From Betaproteobacteria bacterium (GTDB taxonomy: Bacteria; Bdellovibrionota_B; Oligoflexia; Silvanigrellales; Silvanigrellaceae), in NCBI GenBank assembly GCA_016868315.1, contig VGHE01000001.1:310001-374000 (forward strand): a DNA stretch of 64,000 nucleotides. Direction: 5' to 3'. Within the stretch, counting starts at the first letter, position 1. Each line of letters starts with the position of its first letter. The notes below the pieces were generated by a model, which saw only the letters and a list, made by a program, of their open reading frames with translations, ran no database searches and was not told the origin of the DNA. Positions 19,794 to 29,480 of the stretch are shown here, piece after piece. Position numbers and translations under genes: made by a program.

Positions 19794-20579
19794 TCACGCA
19801 GCGGGAAAAGCCTGCTGAAAATAATCCGCAAGTATTTCCTCGGCGAGCTTCCTCGATGAGAAGGCATTTTTGCGATTGAGTCGTTCAAGTGAATATTCAA
19901 TCGCGCTTGGAAGGTGCGTGTCAAAGAACTTTGTGATGAATGGCTCTTCAGCAACAATCTTATCGAGAAAAGTGCCGCCATCGACTTTCAGTATTTTTTC
20001 GTTCCTTTGTTCTTTTGTTTGCGTGATATTATTTGGTGGCGTGAAAACTGTTTCGTAACGTCGATTTCCAGAGCAAATCATTTCGACGTAGTATGTTGTG
20101 TATTCAGCATGTGCAGGGTCTTCAAGGAATGCTCTGAGGTTGCCATATATTGCCTTTTTGTCGCTGCCTTTCGTGGTGTTGTGCTTGTTTTTGATTTCTG
20201 CAGCGATTTTCTTTTTACGATTGACAACATCAAGCAGTTGTCCTGTTCCAAGATCCTCCCAATCTTCAAACGATCCAATAACGATTTGGTGTAGGTCCCC
20301 TATCGTATTTTGGAGAGTCTTTTGCCGCTGTCGGATAAGTTCGTTTTTTTTCCAGTCCTGCACTGAACAACCAAGAATGGAACATTCAATCAGGGCAGAG
20401 AAGGGATCGATCTTGTTTTTTTTAATGGTCTGCGCTGAGTCTGCTTTTGCAATGGATTCAAGAAGTGGCTTCATGATTTTGCAATCGAAGTCTTGGTAGA
20501 ACTTATTCTCAATGAACTTCGCTATACCAGCGCCGCCTCTTGTAGAGAGATATTCCACTCCGCATCCATGAGGGCACAT
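19794..20579 (-). CDS. Type II restriction endonuclease, Eco47II/Sau96I family
   Basis: PD-(D/E)XK-type restriction enzyme of 261 aa. Family blocks are visible in order: KIDPFSALIECSILG, LIRQRQKTLQNTIGDLHQ, and the catalytic AEIKNKHNT (E-x-K) preceded by an Asp in QLLDVVN. Enzymes of this family cut GGWCC or GGNCC; which applies here is not predictable. A C5-cytosine methyltransferase is divergently encoded 320 bp away, as expected for a type II system. The ATG has no clear ribosome-binding site and the Cys-rich first 15 residues look atypical, so the true start may differ. Local sequence is more AT-rich than its neighbours, suggesting acquisition by transfer. Confidence 0.85.
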   Translation of the reverse strand: MCPHGCGVEYLSTRGGAGIAKFIENKFYQDFDCKIMKPLLESIAKADSAQTIKKNKIDPFSALIECSILGCSVQDWKKNELIRQRQKTLQNTIGDLHQIVIGSFEDWEDLGTGQLLDVVNRKKKIAAEIKNKHNTTKGSDKKAIYGNLRAFLEDPAHAEYTTYYVEMICSGNRRYETVFTPPNNITQTKEQRNEKILKVDGGTFLDKIVAEEPFITKFFDTHLPSAIEYSLERLNRKNAFSSRKLAEEILADYFQQAFPAA

Positions 20580-20899
20580 GTCGGCATTTGTTAAGCGTTC
20601 TTGAGGATGTCCGCGGTGTGTGACTTCTTACGGTGTCGTTTTCTGAGGTGCGTGCGAATAGCTGTAATTTATGTTTTCTTTCTGTTTTTAGGAGGCTCAG
20701 TGCTCTGACCTCCTCACTCAGCTGGGTACACCACTCAAAGTTCTAATCCATCAAATAGGCCATTTTAAACCGATATTTGCGTTGGTTTGGCCTGAGTCCG
20801 TGTCCCTTGCTGCTCAGCTTGTCTGGCCTGCGAGGTTCTGGTATCCGAGAGGTCGAATCTCAAACTCAAGAAGTCGAACCGGTTTCCCTGGGGGGTGGT
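20580..20899. promoter_or_regulatory. Divergent restriction-modification control region
   Basis: 320 bp between the restriction enzyme (minus) and methyltransferase (plus), with no convincing gene. At 20691-20713 a strong hairpin or operator-like inverted repeat is seen: GGAGG-c-TCAG, loop TGCT, CTGA-CCTCC. No promoter boxes are clear. No separate C-protein gene is present. The methyltransferase carries its own N-terminal HTH, which could bind here, but that is inference. Confidence 0.45.
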
Positions 20900-22210
20900 A
20901 TGGATTTGAAATCCACGATGTCAGCAGAACTTGTTGCTGATATCACATCGGTTTCGAAGGCAACGCTGCGTAAGTGGGAAAAGGCGGGAAAGCTCACCCC
21001 CATCCAGAACCGCGCAACGGGACGTGTCGAATATCAGCTCGAGCAGTTGTTGCAGTTCGAGGCGTTTCGCGGTTTGCAGTCTTCAAATTGGAATGAAGAA
21101 GAAAGAGTTGTTCCGAGCAGAAAGTACACCTCCATTGAATTGTTCGCAGGAGCGGGCGGTTTGGCATTGGGTTTGGAAAAGGCTGGATTTGAGACTCTAG
21201 CTCTCAACGAGTTCGACAAGGACGCCTGCGGAACGCTGCGTGCGAATCGCAGTGGGTGGAATGTTATTGAAGGAGATATTCGAAACGTCGACTTCAAAGC
21301 GTATTCTGGCATTGATTTTTTATCTGGTGGATTTCCGTGCCAGGCATTTTCATATGCAGGCAATCAGCTCGGGTTTGAAGACACCCGCGGTACGATGTTC
21401 TTTGAATTTGCACGTGCCATCCGCGAAACCTCTCCGCGCGTCTTCATGGCCGAAAATGTTCGTGGACTTTCTGTTCATGATGGTGGCCGAACGATGGCAA
21501 CCATCAAGCGAGTCATTTCTGACTTGGGCTACACACTGATCGAGCCCACAGTGTTGAAAGCAATCGTCTACAAGGTACCGCAGAAGCGTGAACGGCTATT
21601 TCTCATTGGTGTGCGCAACGATTTGGCCAAGTCGTTTCAGTTTTCTTGGCCATCACCGTGTCCGCAGGTGTTCGTGCTGCGTGATGCTCTCAAGGCCGGA
21701 GCGTTGTTCAAAGAAGATGTTCCAAAGTCTGAGGGGCAGAAATATCCCAAGAGAAAAAAAGAGATCATGGCGATGGTACCGCAAGGCGGATATTGGCGCG
21801 ATTTGCCCGATGAAATTCAGAGGGAATACATGAAGGCCAGTTATTTTCTGGGCGGCGGCAAAACTGGAATGGCACGGCGGCTCTCTTGGGATGAACCCAG
21901 TCTCACGCTGACTTGCGCTCCCGCTCAGAATCAAACTGAGCGGTGTCACCCTGAAGAAACCCGGCCTCTGACTGTGCGTGAATACGCGCGTATCCAGACT
22001 TTTCCCGACGATTGGGTTTTCTCGGGCAAGTTGGGCAGTCAATACAAACAAATTGGCAATGCAGTTCCTGTGAACCTCGCGTATGCCGTTGGGCGCCGCG
22101 TTGTTGCTCTGCTCAACAGCATGGAAGTCAATGCGGGCCGTTCAGCCACCAAAAACCATCGTAAGATTGCCGCTGCGCGAGAGAATATGCGCTCTATCTT
22201 CGAATTTTGA
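20900..22210 (+). CDS. DNA (cytosine-5) methyltransferase with N-terminal MerR-like HTH
   Basis: C5-cytosine methyltransferase protecting host DNA from the divergent restriction enzyme. Motif I is FAGAGGLALG, motif IV GGFPCQAFS with the catalytic Cys, motif VI ENVRGL, motif VIII QKRERLFLIG, and motif X QYKQIGNAVP near the C-terminus. A target-recognition stretch lies between VIII and IX. Residues 8-50 (ITSVSKATLRKWEKAGKLTP) form a MerR-type winged helix, like the N-terminal regulatory helices of some type II methylases that repress their own promoter. ATG 20900 is chosen for its upstream GGGGGTGG; the longer frame begins with non-conserved sequence. Confidence 0.9.
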   Translation: MDLKSTMSAELVADITSVSKATLRKWEKAGKLTPIQNRATGRVEYQLEQLLQFEAFRGLQSSNWNEEERVVPSRKYTSIELFAGAGGLALGLEKAGFETLALNEFDKDACGTLRANRSGWNVIEGDIRNVDFKAYSGIDFLSGGFPCQAFSYAGNQLGFEDTRGTMFFEFARAIRETSPRVFMAENVRGLSVHDGGRTMATIKRVISDLGYTLIEPTVLKAIVYKVPQKRERLFLIGVRNDLAKSFQFSWPSPCPQVFVLRDALKAGALFKEDVPKSEGQKYPKRKKEIMAMVPQGGYWRDLPDEIQREYMKASYFLGGGKTGMARRLSWDEPSLTLTCAPAQNQTERCHPEETRPLTVREYARIQTFPDDWVFSGKLGSQYKQIGNAVPVNLAYAVGRRVVALLNSMEVNAGRSATKNHRKIAAARENMRSIFEF

Positions 22211-22232
22211 GTTCATGCAGGCATAAAGATTG

Positions 22233-22499
22233 ATGAACGAAGCCGACTGGTACTTGTATTTGCTCGAGTGCGGCGATGGTAGCCTGTACTGTGGCATTGC
22301 AAAAAATGTGGAGCGGCGTGTTGCCGAACACGCTTGTGGCAAGGGAGCGCGCTACACGCGTGGCCGTGGCCCATTCAGAATCGTGTGGCAAACCTCTGAG
22401 CCACTGACCCGGAGTGCAGCGTTAAAGCTCGAGTTGAAAATCAAAGCAATGTCGCGCGAACAAAAGCTAACTTTTGTTGCGGCACGCGAATCGAATTAA
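22233..22499 (+). CDS. GIY-YIG domain protein, UPF0213/YhbQ-like
   Basis: Small single-domain GIY-YIG protein (88 aa). The motif appears as YLYLLECGDGSLYCGIAKNVERRVAEH, with the catalytic Arg in ERRVAEH and the family's GARYTRGRGP segment. Such proteins are found in many bacteria, often near DNA-modification or repair genes. It follows the methyltransferase by 22 nt, and could be cotranscribed with it. TTG 22230 is an alternative start. Confidence 0.85.
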   Translation: MNEADWYLYLLECGDGSLYCGIAKNVERRVAEHACGKGARYTRGRGPFRIVWQTSEPLTRSAALKLELKIKAMSREQKLTFVAARESN

Positions 22500-22504
22500 T
22501 GATT

Positions 22505-23350
22505 TCATCGCGCAATCACACATCTAACACCCGTGTCGGGAGTTGAATTGCGACCCACAGCATAGAGGCCTCCGAGTTGGCCATTGAAGCGAAACGCAAG
22601 CGATAAATTTGCTGCGTGGGCAGTGACCGACCAAAACTGTTGGTTGTGGCACGGCGAAGCGCTGCTCCAGGAAGTGATTGATGCACGGCAAAAATCAAAA
22701 ACCTCTTGGTTTGTCGGGAGACGTTGACCGCGTGCAGCGCAGTAAGCTGCTGCCTCGCTTAATTTGCCATTGCTGTGCCTAAAAAATTGAGCGCCACTGT
22801 GTTCTGCGAAGCTCAGTGCAAGGCGCTTGCCGTTGAGGTTGTAGATCAAATCGTTACCTTCGCGGGCGATGGTCAACCCTTGAGCGACACTCACCACATT
22901 CGGCGAACTGCTGCTATTAAAATTCTCCGAGTCTCCATTGCCACTGAGGGAAAGCCAGGCTTTGGGAATGGTGTCGTCGCAATGACTTTGGCCATTTAAC
23001 AGCCGCCCCAGAGCGTTGTAACAACCGGCCACAGAGCTGTCGAAAGTTATACTGCTCTGCAACCCGAACTGTTCGAGGCGATCGTTCTTTTGTCTAACCG
23101 AAAGTGCTTTGCTGCCTTGTTGCTCCGTGAGCTGAACGAAGGCTTTGAACTTTCCATTGCTGCAGGCTGAAATTGCAACTTGCGATACTCCCGTTCCTTC
23201 GACGTAAACGTTGCCCGAATCACATTTTCCTGAGACCTCCACAAAGCGATCGGCAACAGTGGCGCGCTCGCTTGGCACAACGATTTTGAATGACGAAGAC
23301 TCAGGAGGCGGAGGCAACACTTCTTTCTTTGCTCGATCGGGGGTGTTCAC
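22505..23350 (-). CDS. Ig-like / Lcl-type C-terminal protein (probable lipoprotein, signal cut off by TGA)
   Basis: 281 aa from GTG 23350. After a Pro-rich linker comes an Ig-like beta segment (VSGKCDSGNVYVEG) and a C-terminal domain resembling DUF1566/Lcl_C (AARGQRLPTNQEVFDFC, then WSVT and GVRCVIAR), often found in surface lipoproteins. As written it has no signal peptide, but the same frame extends upstream through a TGA to a lipoprotein-like leader starting at 23530 (see 23351-23530). Function unknown. The gene probably forms an operon with the lipoprotein gene upstream. Confidence 0.6.
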   Translation of the reverse strand: MNTPDRAKKEVLPPPPESSSFKIVVPSERATVADRFVEVSGKCDSGNVYVEGTGVSQVAISACSNGKFKAFVQLTEQQGSKALSVRQKNDRLEQFGLQSSITFDSSVAGCYNALGRLLNGQSHCDDTIPKAWLSLSGNGDSENFNSSSSPNVVSVAQGLTIAREGNDLIYNLNGKRLALSFAEHSGAQFFRHSNGKLSEAAAYCAARGQRLPTNQEVFDFCRASITSWSSASPCHNQQFWSVTAHAANLSLAFRFNGQLGGLYAVGRNSTPDTGVRCVIAR

Positions 23351-23530
23351 GACTACGGCGCTTGCATCATCGGATGACTTTGTTTCCGGTATGGATGCTG
23401 TGAATGATTCTTCCGTTAGGGGAACACCTGTGGGCGTGGTGAGTCGCTTCTCGACTCCGCTTCAGCCTAAGGCAAGGCTGATCACGGAAGTCATGCTGAG
23501 GCTTAAACTTTGGCTCTTGCGACTATTCAT
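23351..23530 (-). other. Lipoprotein leader with TGA at the lipobox cysteine position
   Basis: In frame with the 22505-23350 gene, ATG 23530 opens a 22-codon leader: MNSRKSQSLSLSMTSVIS, then LALG, then TGA (23462-23464), then SGVEKRLTTPTG and on without interruption into the downstream gene. With Cys in place of TGA this is a standard lipoprotein signal (LALG-C). ATG 23530 lies 6 nt after the stop of the upstream lipoprotein gene, as expected in an operon. A 6-bp hairpin (GAGTCG-AGAAG-CGACTC) follows the TGA by 4 nt. Confidence 0.7.
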
Positions 23531-23536
23531 TACATC

Positions 23537-24379
23537 TCAAAGCCCCAGTGTGAAGGTGGTTTTAGCAATGTTGCCCGCGCGATCGCGGACCTGGATTTGC
23601 CCTGGGGGAAGTGATGTACCCGAAGGATAAACAAAGCGGTTGCTGCTCACCCAAGTCACTCCAGCATCAAAAGAATAAGCTTGCGGATGGAGTCCTGATT
23701 CAGCGTCAGTTGCATTGACGGTCACGCTCTCGCCCCCGCCTACTGCTGCGGTGTTTATTGCACCTAACCTCGGTGGGTTTTTGTCGTTCGCGGGGTTGCT
23801 GATGTTCGACAGCATCAGTGTTGACCCATTTGTGCCCGCGCGCATTTCGAGCAATGTTTGCGGCACAGCGTTTGGCGCATCGATTCTGTAAGTGGCTCTG
23901 ACGAGCGCATCAAAATGTGTTGCTTGAATAATCAAAGAGCTCTCAGAAACTGCCGTTCCAGTGCGTCTGCGCACCAAAATGCGCTCCACTTTTCTTGGGT
24001 CTGCGACGGGAAGATTAACGTAGCCCGCTGAGTTGGTTCTAGCACTTGAGGCTTGGAGTCCGGTTTCTTCCATGACGACCTCAGTGTTTGGCAGAGCTAA
24101 GCCACTCGCATCGGTAATGAACGCAGCGAGGTAGGATCCAACCACGGGAACGGGCACAAAAACCTCGGGTGGCGGAGTGACCTGGGCATTCTCTGGATCC
24201 GGCTGAGCGCCGACCGCATCGCAGCAGGGTGGCGCTTCGGAAGGTTGTTGGCTTTTTTTCTTGGAAGAGGGGTTTGAAGAGGCCGGGTTGCGGGTCTCTT
24301 GTCCCTGTGCCCTTGAGTAGTCTGCGTCACCGCAGGCCACCAGTAAGGACACAGTTATAAGAATGAGCCAGTTCAACAC
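23537..24379 (-). CDS. Lipoprotein with carboxypeptidase-regulatory-like and Ig-like domains
   Basis: 280 aa. The signal ends LLVAC (intact lipobox cysteine). A low-complexity Ser/Lys/Pro linker follows, then a beta domain like CNA-B or carboxypeptidase-regulatory domains (LALPNTEVVMEETG), and a C-terminal Ig-like unit with SFDAGVTWV and QVRDRAGNIAK. Such modular lipoproteins often act at the cell surface; no enzyme is indicated. It is the first gene of a two-gene operon with the 22505-23530 gene. Confidence 0.68.
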   Translation of the reverse strand: MLNWLILITVSLLVACGDADYSRAQGQETRNPASSNPSSKKKSQQPSEAPPCCDAVGAQPDPENAQVTPPPEVFVPVPVVGSYLAAFITDASGLALPNTEVVMEETGLQASSARTNSAGYVNLPVADPRKVERILVRRRTGTAVSESSLIIQATHFDALVRATYRIDAPNAVPQTLLEMRAGTNGSTLMLSNISNPANDKNPPRLGAINTAAVGGGESVTVNATDAESGLHPQAYSFDAGVTWVSSNRFVYPSGTSLPPGQIQVRDRAGNIAKTTFTLGL

Positions 24380-24584
24380 GTCTCGGTTACTCCCATAGAA
24401 TTTTTTGGAACATTTTGAACGAGCCTTGATTCGAGAAAATAGTATGCACGATTTCGGGAGCTTGGTGGATGGATTTGACTTACTGTTGATTTTGCCCGAG
24501 CGCCGAAACCAGGCAGTCTGCGCGACTTAAATAGATTATTCTAGGGATTTGTGATGTTTGGACAAGATTTGTGAATTTGAAGTC

Positions 24585-24661
24585 TGGAGCGGGAAACGGG
24601 ACTCGAACCCGCGACCCTCGCCATGGCAAGGCGATGCTCTAGCCAACTGAGCTATTCCCGC
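24585..24661 (-). tRNA. tRNA-Gly(GCC)
   Basis: 77-nt cloverleaf on the minus strand with a 7-bp GCGGGAA acceptor stem, anticodon loop TTGCCAT (anticodon GCC), TTCGAGT T-loop and an encoded CCA end. It is identical to the second copy, 18 bp upstream in transcription order. Confidence 0.97.
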
Positions 24662-24679
24662 ATTCAGACCGGACTTCGA

Positions 24680-24756
24680 TGGAGCGGGAAACGGGACTCG
24701 AACCCGCGACCCTCGCCATGGCAAGGCGATGCTCTAGCCAACTGAGCTATTCCCGC
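24680..24756 (-). tRNA. tRNA-Gly(GCC), second identical copy
   Basis: 77-nt tRNA identical to the neighbouring copy, including encoded CCA. It is the promoter-proximal member of the tandem pair. Confidence 0.97.
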
Positions 24757-24770
24757 TCGAAGTTCTCGGG

Positions 24771-24799
24771 TGTTACTTGACCCTGGCCTTGTTTGTCAA
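24771..24799 (-). promoter_or_regulatory. Putative sigma-70 promoter of the tRNA-Gly pair
   Basis: On the minus strand TTGACA (24794-24799) and GTAACA (24771-24776) are separated by 17 bp, placing initiation just before the first tRNA. The -35 box is perfect; the -10 box is weak. Confidence 0.55.
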
Positions 24800-24898
24800 G
24801 TCTGATTCCAGAGTTCATAGTGTTCCACGGAGAGTGGCTTTTTCTTAGGGTTTTGGGCGGCTGCCGGTGGCGGTAAAGAGCTCGGGGTTAGGTTGCAG

Positions 24899-26698
24899 AT
24901 GAGTCATATGGAACAGCGCTGGCGAGTCTTTGGTAGGCGTCTTTTAGGACGCTTCCTGGCGCACTTTCTGAGTTTCATTGCAGTCTGGGCGTTGGTCATT
25001 CTCGCACAGCGCCTCGGAACGTCAGTCTCGACTCTCGAAGCGGCAGGCATGGCGGCAAAATTCTCGATGTTCTGGTCCGATTTGAGCTTAGGTTTCGCTC
25101 CCGGAGCGGCAACTCTGCTGTGTGTGGCAATTGCATGGAGTTTTTTGGGGATCGCCGTTTCAACCCGCGTGTCGGTTTTGCTCGCCTGCATCTCTATCTT
25201 TGTTGCGGCGAGCTATGCGCGATTTCCTCTTCCCGATCAGGCCTCGGGTTGGTTGATGTGGGCAGGCAGCATGACCCCCAGAGGCATGCAGTTGTTCCTG
25301 ATTGTCAGCCTCGGTTTGGCTTCCTCTCTTCTGCTCGTTCGATACATGACTCGCCGCTATGAAGCTCTCTCGAGCGACGATCGTCTTGCCCTCACACCTG
25401 AGGACGAAGATTTCGCATACCGCGATTTGGTTCAGTCGATGCTCAAGTTTCTTTGTGTTTTGGTTTCTCTGGCGGTGTTATGGCGCATCGCTGACATTCG
25501 CCCGGTTCCAGCCGTCGCTGCGGCAGACCCACGCGAGTTGCGTCCGTCGGTGATACTGCTTTCAACCGATAGCTCACATCACGTTGAACAGCTCAACAAA
25601 CGCATGGGTTCACCGCATTTTTCTTCATGGGTGGTGTTTGGTAGTCCTGAACTCAATGCCAAATTCGATGAAATCTTGCAGTGTCGCTATCCTATTCGCT
25701 TGATGGGGCGGGCACCTGTGGGTGCGCGCAATCCACAGCGGGAAATCAACGACTTCCTTGTTCCTGCGGCTCTCAGTTCATCGGGATATTCGGTCAATCT
25801 TCTCCATGCTGTTTCTGCTGGAGAGGCAAGTGATACGCTCAAGATGTTTTCTCGAGCCTATGCGCACGTTCGTTTTTTTCGTCGCTTTGGCCTGCTGCGA
25901 CCATCACGCGTTTTCCATACGCCTGATGTGCAGTTGGCGCAGATGCGTGAGGCGTTCACTGCTGCAGTGGGGCGTGGCGAACCTGTTTTTATAACCTCAT
26001 CGATGACCACCTCTGCTCAAGTGGGTAGCACGGGCAAAGAATCAGCTGAGTTTGAAACTTTTATTGACGTGCTGAAGCAACAGCAGTGGGGCAACAATCT
26101 GATGATTGTGGTTCTCGAACTTCCACCCCGACAAAATCAGAAAGCACAACTCGATCTTTCACTTCAGAGCACGACTGCCCGAGTTTTTTTCTGGATGCCA
26201 CAGCGCCTTTCGGAAGCCAACCTTGCACCCGCAGCGGCCAAACTCATTCGTGGAATCGACTTGGGGGCAACTCTCACCGCACGCTTGCGCCTTTCCGGAG
26301 TCATGCCCTTTTGTGATGGTGGCGCGCTTTTTGATTTGAGTGAGCGACCATCGCTCTTCCCGCGAGATTTGGTTTATCAGGAGTATGATCTGGGCAATGC
26401 TCGGCCGATTTTCCGGCAGCGCGGTTGGCTCAGCTCCGATGGCTACAGGCTGGAAGTGCTTGAGTCGAACGAGGGAGCAGAGGTGCGTACCTATAAGTTT
26501 TCGATGCAAGAGTTTTTTGCGCGAACTAACTGGCAGGCAGTCAGGGAAACGACTTTGAAAGATGAAATTGTATCGCAGGAGCTCAATCGCCAGATGGATG
26601 ACTTTCTCAGGAGCACAGGTGTCGAGATTCTCAGTTTGGGCGAGGGACGCTCTGCGTATTCCGAACCCTTCAGAAGAATTCGTTTGCTTGAGCGGTGA
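24899..26698 (+). CDS. Polytopic membrane protein with degenerate sulfatase/alkaline-phosphatase-like domain
   Basis: 599 aa: about five membrane helices in the first 200 residues (for example FLSFIAVWALVILAQ, MQLFLIVSLGLASSLLLV, LKFLCVLVSLAVLW), then a soluble domain. That domain opens with SVILLSTDSSHHVEQL, which matches the start of sulfatase/LTA-synthase domains (normally D-S-L-R-A-D), and later has MIVVLELPP. The metal and nucleophile residues of true sulfatases are not evident. ATG 24899 is chosen for AGG 6 nt upstream. A related larger protein follows after 19 nt. Role unknown; envelope modification is possible. Confidence 0.55.
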   Translation: MSHMEQRWRVFGRRLLGRFLAHFLSFIAVWALVILAQRLGTSVSTLEAAGMAAKFSMFWSDLSLGFAPGAATLLCVAIAWSFLGIAVSTRVSVLLACISIFVAASYARFPLPDQASGWLMWAGSMTPRGMQLFLIVSLGLASSLLLVRYMTRRYEALSSDDRLALTPEDEDFAYRDLVQSMLKFLCVLVSLAVLWRIADIRPVPAVAAADPRELRPSVILLSTDSSHHVEQLNKRMGSPHFSSWVVFGSPELNAKFDEILQCRYPIRLMGRAPVGARNPQREINDFLVPAALSSSGYSVNLLHAVSAGEASDTLKMFSRAYAHVRFFRRFGLLRPSRVFHTPDVQLAQMREAFTAAVGRGEPVFITSSMTTSAQVGSTGKESAEFETFIDVLKQQQWGNNLMIVVLELPPRQNQKAQLDLSLQSTTARVFFWMPQRLSEANLAPAAAKLIRGIDLGATLTARLRLSGVMPFCDGGALFDLSERPSLFPRDLVYQEYDLGNARPIFRQRGWLSSDGYRLEVLESNEGAEVRTYKFSMQEFFARTNWQAVRETTLKDEIVSQELNRQMDDFLRSTGVEILSLGEGRSAYSEPFRRIRLLER

Positions 26699-26717: not shown

Positions 26718-29480
26718 GTGCAGAGGAATTTGAGGGAATCTTTGGTCGTGTTTGTGCGTGCCCTGGTCGAGGCACTCAAGCAGTCCATTGGACGTTTGAC
26801 CTTATGGCTCTCGTGTCATGGGGTGGTCTTGCCTTGGAATACGTGGGCTGAAACGTGTGTATCCAATTCAACCCTGGAGCGTTACCGGCGGCGTGCATTG
26901 GTTGCTCACCTGAGAGTGCAGCGCTACCGCATTGCACGTGGGCCTTATTTTTTGCGCTCCCTGCTCGATTCTACCCTGACTTTAGTTCGGTTCATGCAGT
27001 TTCCATCGTTGGTTGCAATTAAGCTTTTTCTAGCACTGCTCATGTGTCTGCTGCCATTTCTCATCTTTTTTGCGATCAGAATTTATTTGCCCGTGGCACA
27101 GCGCATTCCGCAATTGGAAAGCAGCGTTGATTTAGAAGTGATGAATTCGACGGAGGCGGTCGTACCGCGAGTGTTTCGCCAGCTCAATGTCACTCTCATG
27201 CACGCCAATTCGCAAGCGCAGGAAGTAAATGAGGATTCGTTTTTCTCCTTTAAGCAACTCGATGCTCGCAGTGGGGAAGGATTCCTGATTCAAGGCAAGG
27301 GCAGCGCACACGAGGAGTTTCGGCGCGGTTGGCGACTCTCTCAGGCTGAGGAGCTTGTCGTAACAGTTGCTCCGCAACGCGAAGCACGCAATCTGAATTT
27401 ACAATTCAGACCGATTCCTGACAGCGGCAAACCAGCTCAATGTAAATTGCATATCGTGAATGCAAATGGTCAGGTTGTCTTTGCGAGCAGCTTCGACACC
27501 CTCCTAGCTTCGCGTTTTTCTTTGCTCAAAACCCCTCTGGCACGTGGACTTCAAGAAAAGCTCATGCCTGACTTCGCAATGAACCGTGCACGCTTAAGCT
27601 CTGACCCGGTGTCCATTCCCATGAGTGCGGGTGAATCGCAATTGTCGTTCCGAATGGAACGTATCGACAAAGGTGAAGACAACGCGACCTGCTCGGCACT
27701 GTTACACAATTTTGAGTGGAGTGGAGATAAAATCTCGGCTCCTCAAACGGCCGTCCGAAAATCAATGTTGATGCTTCTCTTTCAATCCATGAATGCCGAT
27801 GTTGCTTCAGACTCCAAGCGCATGCCGTGGCTCTCTGGATTTCTGAAATCATCCGCTACAATGCAGTTCAATCAACATCACGCCATTGACGTGCGAAGCG
27901 ATGAGTCGTTTAAGTCGCTGTTGGGTTTTTCGGGCGGACAGGGTATCTCTCCGACTGATGAAAACTACAATTACATCGAGAAACTCAGACGCAAAGGCTA
28001 CCGTATCGTCTTCGTGGGTGATTTCGATTCTCCTGACTCATACTTTACCCGGGTTGTTCCTGATGTTGCTGTGCGAATCGACAATGAAACCTATGATGCA
28101 CGTCTGACACTGTCGCAGGCTATGAATTTACTGGCTCATGAGGCAAATGCTCCGGTTTTTATGCTGGTTCGTTTGCGCGGCATGAGTGCACCTTGGCGGC
28201 CGTTTTTTTCAGATCTGAATCTTAAAGAAGTCTTTTTCGGTGGTGACGCGCGTGGCGTTATGGATGCGCTTGTTTTTGCGCACCTGCGCACACTCGACAG
28301 CGAGCTTGCACGCTTCTTCGGTGACTTTGAACAGAATGGAGTTCTCTCGAAGTTTGATTTTCTTGTGACTGCCGAGCGAGGCTTTGACCTCGGATATAAT
28401 TTGATTTTCTCAGATCCAATCAAGCCAACCTTCAGCTCCGATCTTCTGCTGAATCAAGAGACGCTCCGTGTTCCCTTGGGCATCCGTCTCGCTGACGTTT
28501 CACCTGAGGGTCTGCCATTCCACTTAAAAAATCAAAACACCATGAGTTCGCACAATGACCTGACCCGCACTCTGTGGGAGGGGCTCGGTGTTCTCGACGC
28601 AAAGTATCCCGCTGAGTCGAGGCGATTGTGGGGACGCGGCGACGCGTTGCTTGCGCGCCGGAGCCGGATGATTGCAGAGACTCGGGAAACCGACGTGGTT
28701 GTGCGTATGCTCCCGGTGCGGAGTCGTTTGCAAGAGGGAGTTCTTTTTGCCGATCCCGATTCTGCCGGCGGCTTTTTGAAATACGTTGCGCAGCCCTTAC
28801 CGAGTCGCATCAGTGCGCCCGATGCTTACGGCTGGCCAGAGAAAAATGCTCTTGATTTTCAGGCAGGAGAGCAGTTCCGGCACGTGTCACGGAGGGGTCA
28901 AAAGGAAGAGGTGATCTTCCGGGTCAACAATAAATTTGTGCGCGAGGCGCGACGGATTATTCGTAAAGAGAGAAATTTTCCATTGCGACTCAGGCTGACT
29001 TCGCATGCGACTCAATCCATCGACTTTGTATTCGAGCAGAAAACCACCGGTGATGGGGTTTTCCTTTCTGAGGTGAGCCCCGCGTTAAAGCTCACAACCA
29101 CACAAGTCGATGCACAAACTCTTCTGCATCGACTCACCGGAACTTTCAAAGAGGGTGAATCTTTTGATTTGAAAGGGGGCGGCAATACTTTTCGGGTTGT
29201 TGAGCACCGCGGTGAAGGAATATTGGTCGCCTGCCCCGAAGCGTTTGTATTCTCGCTCCAGGGTTTGAGCTCTGCTCTGGCGCAGAAGACCGTTTGTCTT
29301 CTTGAGAATCCGGAGCGGGAACGTTTGGAGAACCTCAAGAACTCTGGCAAGAAGGCGATCTCATTTTGGCTGGTGGAAGATGAAAACCAAATCTGTAAGC
29401 TCCAAGACGACTACAAAGGTGGTTCGGAAGAGTACTCCGAATGCCTCGAATCGGCGCCTCACGATGAAGGACGCCGCTGA
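26718..29480 (+). CDS. Large membrane-anchored sulfatase-like protein, divergent
   Basis: 920 aa with one strong membrane helix at about residues 95-118 (LFLALLMCLLPFLIFFAI), a beta-rich region, then a sulfatase-like core (LLFQSMNADVASDSKRMPWL, followed by the SDESFKSLLGFSGGQ strand and a GYRIVFVGD strand). The usual catalytic Cys/Ser and metal ligands are not recognisable, so it may be non-enzymatic. The GTG start has GGAAGAGGGA 5 nt upstream. It forms a tandem with the preceding, similarly degenerate protein, and its 3' end overlaps nth by 17 bp. Confidence 0.55.
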   Translation: MQRNLRESLVVFVRALVEALKQSIGRLTLWLSCHGVVLPWNTWAETCVSNSTLERYRRRALVAHLRVQRYRIARGPYFLRSLLDSTLTLVRFMQFPSLVAIKLFLALLMCLLPFLIFFAIRIYLPVAQRIPQLESSVDLEVMNSTEAVVPRVFRQLNVTLMHANSQAQEVNEDSFFSFKQLDARSGEGFLIQGKGSAHEEFRRGWRLSQAEELVVTVAPQREARNLNLQFRPIPDSGKPAQCKLHIVNANGQVVFASSFDTLLASRFSLLKTPLARGLQEKLMPDFAMNRARLSSDPVSIPMSAGESQLSFRMERIDKGEDNATCSALLHNFEWSGDKISAPQTAVRKSMLMLLFQSMNADVASDSKRMPWLSGFLKSSATMQFNQHHAIDVRSDESFKSLLGFSGGQGISPTDENYNYIEKLRRKGYRIVFVGDFDSPDSYFTRVVPDVAVRIDNETYDARLTLSQAMNLLAHEANAPVFMLVRLRGMSAPWRPFFSDLNLKEVFFGGDARGVMDALVFAHLRTLDSELARFFGDFEQNGVLSKFDFLVTAERGFDLGYNLIFSDPIKPTFSSDLLLNQETLRVPLGIRLADVSPEGLPFHLKNQNTMSSHNDLTRTLWEGLGVLDAKYPAESRRLWGRGDALLARRSRMIAETRETDVVVRMLPVRSRLQEGVLFADPDSAGGFLKYVAQPLPSRISAPDAYGWPEKNALDFQAGEQFRHVSRRGQKEEVIFRVNNKFVREARRIIRKERNFPLRLRLTSHATQSIDFVFEQKTTGDGVFLSEVSPALKLTTTQVDAQTLLHRLTGTFKEGESFDLKGGGNTFRVVEHRGEGILVACPEAFVFSLQGLSSALAQKTVCLLENPERERLENLKNSGKKAISFWLVEDENQICKLQDDYKGGSEEYSECLESAPHDEGRR

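Follow-up and report, generated by a model that had tools for sequence, protein, structure and literature searches.

Two described lipoprotein genes come closest to the locus analysed here. In Borrelia burgdorferi B31, bbk46 is reported as a lipoprotein pseudogene with a premature stop at nucleotide 625 (PMC3757035), and in Mycoplasma agalactiae the P48-like gene MAGa1620 is reported to be frameshifted at a polyG tract; this 5′-end lesion severs the signal peptide and lipobox from the mature protein, and the product was detected in the detergent (membrane) fraction (PMC2824730). At the level of the mutation itself, imperfect inverted repeats are described as hot spots of template-switch mutation (PMC7202029), and Illumina miscalls are reported after GGC and at inverted repeats (PMC3622629).

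The gene characterized here lies in a window of 64 kb, by which we mean the whole stretch of DNA that was analysed (64,000 nucleotides). Like bbk46, it belongs to a lipoprotein family and has an in-frame stop beyond which the frame continues; unlike the stop described here, that of bbk46 lies off the lipobox, and for bbk46 a strain comparison exists and a homologue elsewhere is reported to have a sense codon in place of the stop (PMC3757035). As in MAGa1620, the 5′ lesion separates the signal peptide from the mature protein, but here it is a point-like stop rather than a frameshift, no homopolymer is involved, and the window gene is known from sequence alone, whereas a product of MAGa1620 is reported (PMC2824730). 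Finally, as in the described quasipalindrome template-switch mutations, the site lies within an imperfect inverted repeat and the base concerned in a perfectly paired arm; unlike in those cases, no ancestral sequence demonstrates improved pairing here (PMC7202029).

A TGA codon at the lipobox position

The initial annotation described the frame from ATG 23530 as a 22-residue leader ending in LALG, then TGA, then sequence open into the 22505–23350 gene, with no usable ATG between the TGA and that gene and with ATG 23530 placed 6 nt past the end of the upstream lipoprotein gene. Re-reading the frame bore out this description (Table 1). Behind the TGA, 318 codons are open up to the stop at 22505 and, apart from the TGA, no further lesion is visible in the frame. 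The whole gene contains only two in-frame ATGs, 23530 and 23494, both before the TGA, and the first ATG, GTG or TTG in frame past it is GTG 23350. The Shine–Dalgarno energy at ATG 23530 is −4.7 kcal/mol, against a median of −4.8 kcal/mol for 21 reference ATG genes; at GTG 23350 it is +0.3 kcal/mol, that is, without a Shine–Dalgarno signal. The codon usage of the linker between the TGA and GTG 23350 is coding-like, with an equal score reached by 1.4% of off-frame segments and an equal or lower score obtained by 17% of in-frame segments. Because the linker is coding-like, the ATGs stand only before the TGA and a Shine–Dalgarno signal is found only at ATG 23530, leader, linker and body were formerly one gene. 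This gene and the upstream lipoprotein gene are probably co-transcribed as a two-gene lipoprotein operon; a search for intrinsic terminators found no terminator-like site within 22200–24900.

Table 1. Coordinates of the interrupted gene, its hairpin and the upstream lipoprotein gene within the window
Feature	Coordinates	Strand	Remarks
Lipoprotein-type leader, 22 codons, MNSRKSQSLSLSMTSVISLALG	23465..23530	(-)	Start ATG 23530; leader ends in LALG
TGA in frame at lipobox position +1, where the cysteine codon is expected	23464-23462	(-)	
Linker, 37 open codons from TGA to GTG 23350	23351..23461	(-)	Coding-like; no in-frame ATG, GTG or TTG
Remainder of gene, 281 codons	22505..23350	(-)	From GTG 23350
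15-bp stem-loop	23453..23492	(-)	Encloses the TGA
Upstream lipoprotein gene	23537..24379	(-)	LLVAC lipobox

Scored by the lipobox rule, the leader MNSRKSQSLSLSMTSVISLALG has the features of a signal peptidase II substrate, including a K/R n-region, an h-region and suitable lipobox residues from −4 to −1; the cysteine at +1 is absent and the codon there is TGA. Applying the same leader rule with Cys in place of the stop gave 60 frames (33 with TGC and 27 with TGT) in 464 kb of this one genome, made up of the 64-kb window and 400 kb sampled as 20 pieces of 20 kb. Among the 51 lipoprotein leaders retained by eye out of these 60, the leader ranks at the 71st percentile in its four lipobox positions and at the 20th percentile in the hydropathy of its h-region.

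The coincidence of position, which the initial annotation called striking, stands up to a count of stops. The window holds 3,897 stops, 170 of them with at least 100 open codons behind, and a single one of the 170, the TGA at 23464–23462, has a lipoprotein-type leader ahead. Across the 464 kb there are 27,500 stops, 3,566 of which precede a run of 60 or more open codons; the ATG-only version of the leader rule passes just two, the same TGA and a weak TAG without a convincing hydrophobic core. A second convincing lipobox stop was thus not found in the 464 kb, as against the 60 Cys-lipobox leader frames there. The placement of the TGA exactly at the lipobox position is a real observation, beyond chance. 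Sense codons besides those for Cys also lie one base from TGA; from the leader context and the distant relatives, we infer that the ancestral codon was Cys.

Decoding of UGA and the hairpin around the site

Two readings had been offered initially, a nonsense mutation at the lipobox cysteine and a UGA read as Cys or Sec, together with a proposal to look for UGA-decoding tRNA-Cys variants. A tRNA search returned 42 genes (ARAGORN calls) that include a single tRNA-Cys (GCA) and a single tRNA-Trp (CCA); a UCA anticodon occurs in none of the 42. No tRNA-Sec scored over the cut-off in the genome, the nine sub-threshold matches being Ser, Leu, Arg, Tyr, His and Cys tRNAs. Nor did any protein in the genome pass the cut-off for SelB (best 192.2 versus 242.25 bits), a model that likewise gives sub-cut-off matches in 12 of 14 control genomes. 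For SelA, the genome gave no match. The genome does encode RF2 (458.5 bits, cut-off 370), and TGA is the most frequent stop: of 305 non-overlapping open frames with 200 or more codons in the 464 kb, 186 end in it, as do 32 of the 54 ORFs in the window. Since the genome, a draft of 27 contigs, is 94.76% complete, the failure to find decoding machinery is strong evidence, though short of absolute.

In the examined genome, UGA functions as an ordinary stop codon. Its reading as Sec or Cys was rejected on the tRNA, SelB, SelA, RF2 and stop-usage results, and a genetic code with sense UGA was rejected as well, there being no UCA tRNA, RF2 being retained and TGA not being rare as a stop. Of the two initial readings, the nonsense mutation is therefore the best supported, and for the other no machinery was found. 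In a search of the selenocysteine and lipobox literature, no paper on a selenocysteine lipobox was evident from titles and the beginnings of abstracts.

The TGA is enclosed by a stem-loop whose inner part is a perfect 7-bp inverted repeat (23481–23475 and 23468–23462), the final base of the TGA (23462) pairing with 23481 and closing this inner arm. A 44-nt stretch reaches −23.5 kcal/mol (z −4.51), with none of 200 shuffles equally stable. Among 600 random bases, 3 had a structure as stable, as did 3 of 300 synonymous shuffles and 2 of 60 Cys-lipobox sites, so the feature is not unique to the TGA site. A second hairpin, of 6 bp, starts about 5 nt behind the UGA. In bacterial SECIS elements, the hairpin sits at a set spacing behind the UGA, whereas the strong hairpin here encloses it. 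A mobile or repeated (REP-like) hairpin was also considered and rejected: the 140 bases around the TGA are single-copy in the genome, and the three other matches, of 14–17 nt, are at chance level. The inverted repeat and the GGC context could explain a base change here by template switch or by miscall; a quasipalindrome template-switch origin of the TGA, or a consensus error at the hairpin, is plausible, if unproven.

The gene family and its neighbourhood

A profile search of the 58 genomes of the phylum set gave seven strong places in four genomes, including the genome of the window itself. The three full-length relatives, two in G002 (MAG WB4_1_1462; G002:C154 and G002:C163) and one in G029 (MAG ErkenSummer_bin-3819; G029:C210), all carry a leader with a lipobox Cys (SVSC, AAGC and FLGC, respectively). 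The initial annotation had named as counter-evidence orthologues that lack a leader and begin where GTG 23350 lies; none was seen. The remainder of the frame past the TGA is homologous to the full-length relatives and, as all three of these carry a leader with Cys, the TGA gene is of lipoprotein ancestry. To judge from its relatives, the window probably stems from a bacterium of Oligoflexia/Silvanigrellales type.

The other four of the seven members are irregular, the TGA gene of the window among them. G029:C132 (L097:298–300) has a lipobox leader followed by an in-frame TAG three codons past the lipobox Cys; G004:C100, from an uncultured Silvanigrella (G004), has a TAG before the conserved part and no visible leader; and G029:C317 is a fragment within a 100-codon open frame. 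The TAG of G029:C132 is a second independent break close to the end of a signal peptide. A protein search of the genome contigs gave no close orthologue, and the relatives are distant, the best with 37% identity over 71 residues. Synteny was also compared with G001 and G002, both of the same genus, and did not reveal the gene; in G002, a contig end truncates a homologue of the upstream lipoprotein. The small size of the family, its patchy distribution and its frequent breaks in relatives suggest that its loss is tolerated and that it is dispensable.

Past GTG 23350, the protein comprises a Pro-rich linker, a Cys-containing part that is Ig-like by eye and a weak Lcl_C/FGE-like C-terminal domain. 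Compared with the Lcl_C (PF07603) lipoproteins of Oligoflexia, the relative L104 passes the Pfam gathering cut-off (43.7 versus 34.9 bits) and aligns with the window protein, whereas the window protein itself, at 12.6 bits, falls under the same cut-off. Its AlphaFold2 model (mean pLDDT 45.6) is too weak to support a fold search.

Several other features were observed around the lipoprotein pair. At 19794–22210, an Eco47II-type restriction endonuclease (PF09553, minus strand) adjoins a C-5 cytosine methylase (plus strand) that has an N-terminal MerR-like helix-turn-helix; the two are a type II restriction–modification pair, and the methylase is perhaps self-regulating. Directly upstream of the lipoprotein pair, at 24585–24756, lie two tRNA-Gly (GCC) genes of equal score, and these, with the restriction–modification genes, may mark a variable region. 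Further, the 920-codon frame at 26718–29480 has a sub-threshold Sulfatase match (PF00884, 17.3 versus 25 bits), and its neighbour, a 601-codon frame at 24893–26698, gave no Pfam match at E 0.01.

Origin and consequences of the interrupted frame

Taken together, these results favour a commonplace, recent mutation (or an assembly error) by which the gene is broken, and not a novel reading of the code. We consider it probable that the TGA is a young nonsense allele that hit the lipobox Cys codon of the downstream member of a lipoprotein pair, within a dispensable family. As the frame stays open past the TGA, the event would be recent, but the lack of other lesions is also compatible with an assembly error or with continued reading of the gene, and the conversion of a Cys codon to TGA by simple substitution is a transversion, the rarer class of change, which likewise counts against a nonsense allele. 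A sequencing or assembly error, with a sense codon in the true genome and an intact lipoprotein, is the main rival, unlikely without being negligible: the 318-codon frame is otherwise undamaged, the TGA directly follows GGC inside a stable inverted repeat, and the assembly is a draft, but errors of this sort show strand bias and seldom survive normal coverage, only one convincing case occurs in the 464 kb, and short GGC contexts are reported to be poor predictors of error sites (PMC3622629).

The 281-codon frame from GTG 23350 retains the whole conserved domain, and a short leaderless form starting there could itself be the functional product, with the upstream frame a relic. The missing Shine–Dalgarno signal at this GTG, the linker that remains coding-like, the lipoprotein leader in every full-length relative and the Cys-containing domain, which would suit an exported protein, make this improbable. 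Useful readthrough of the UGA by a near-cognate tRNA, aided by the hairpin and yielding some full-length protein, or decoding of the UGA as Cys or Sec, would account for a stop exactly at the Cys position, for the frame open downstream and for the unusual stability of the hairpin. Nevertheless, no decoding machinery was found and RF2 is present, ordinary lipobox sites can carry an equally stable hairpin, the hairpin encloses the UGA, unlike the spacing in bacterial SECIS elements, and the sole relative with a stop near the lipobox, G029:C132, has TAG at another position; we regard readthrough or decoding as highly improbable. A bolder reading is a programmed switch at a hairpin-enclosed lipobox UGA, where most ribosomes would stop behind the signal peptide and a few read through, a non-Cys residue giving an unlipidated form, and to this we give only the slightest chance.

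According to the nonsense-allele explanation that we favour, the ancestral gene would have encoded a protein that was exported, lipidated and equipped at its C-terminus with a domain resembling Lcl_C; its lipobox cysteine codon would have mutated to TGA, possibly through a quasipalindrome template switch at the inverted repeat. Ribosomes starting at ATG 23530, a usable start, would then stop after the 22-residue signal peptide and, with no good start behind the TGA, the lipoprotein would be lost or made in traces only.

The genetic code or lipoprotein sorting would be touched only if a full-length product were shown. If the TGA is a nonsense allele, the locus represents ordinary gene loss and a model for the triage of a lipobox TGA, in which recoding is proposed only after the tRNAs, the release factor, the usage of stops, the signals at the start codons and the relatives have been checked. 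It also offers a concrete candidate, located in an inverted repeat within a signal-peptide sequence, for mutation by template switch.
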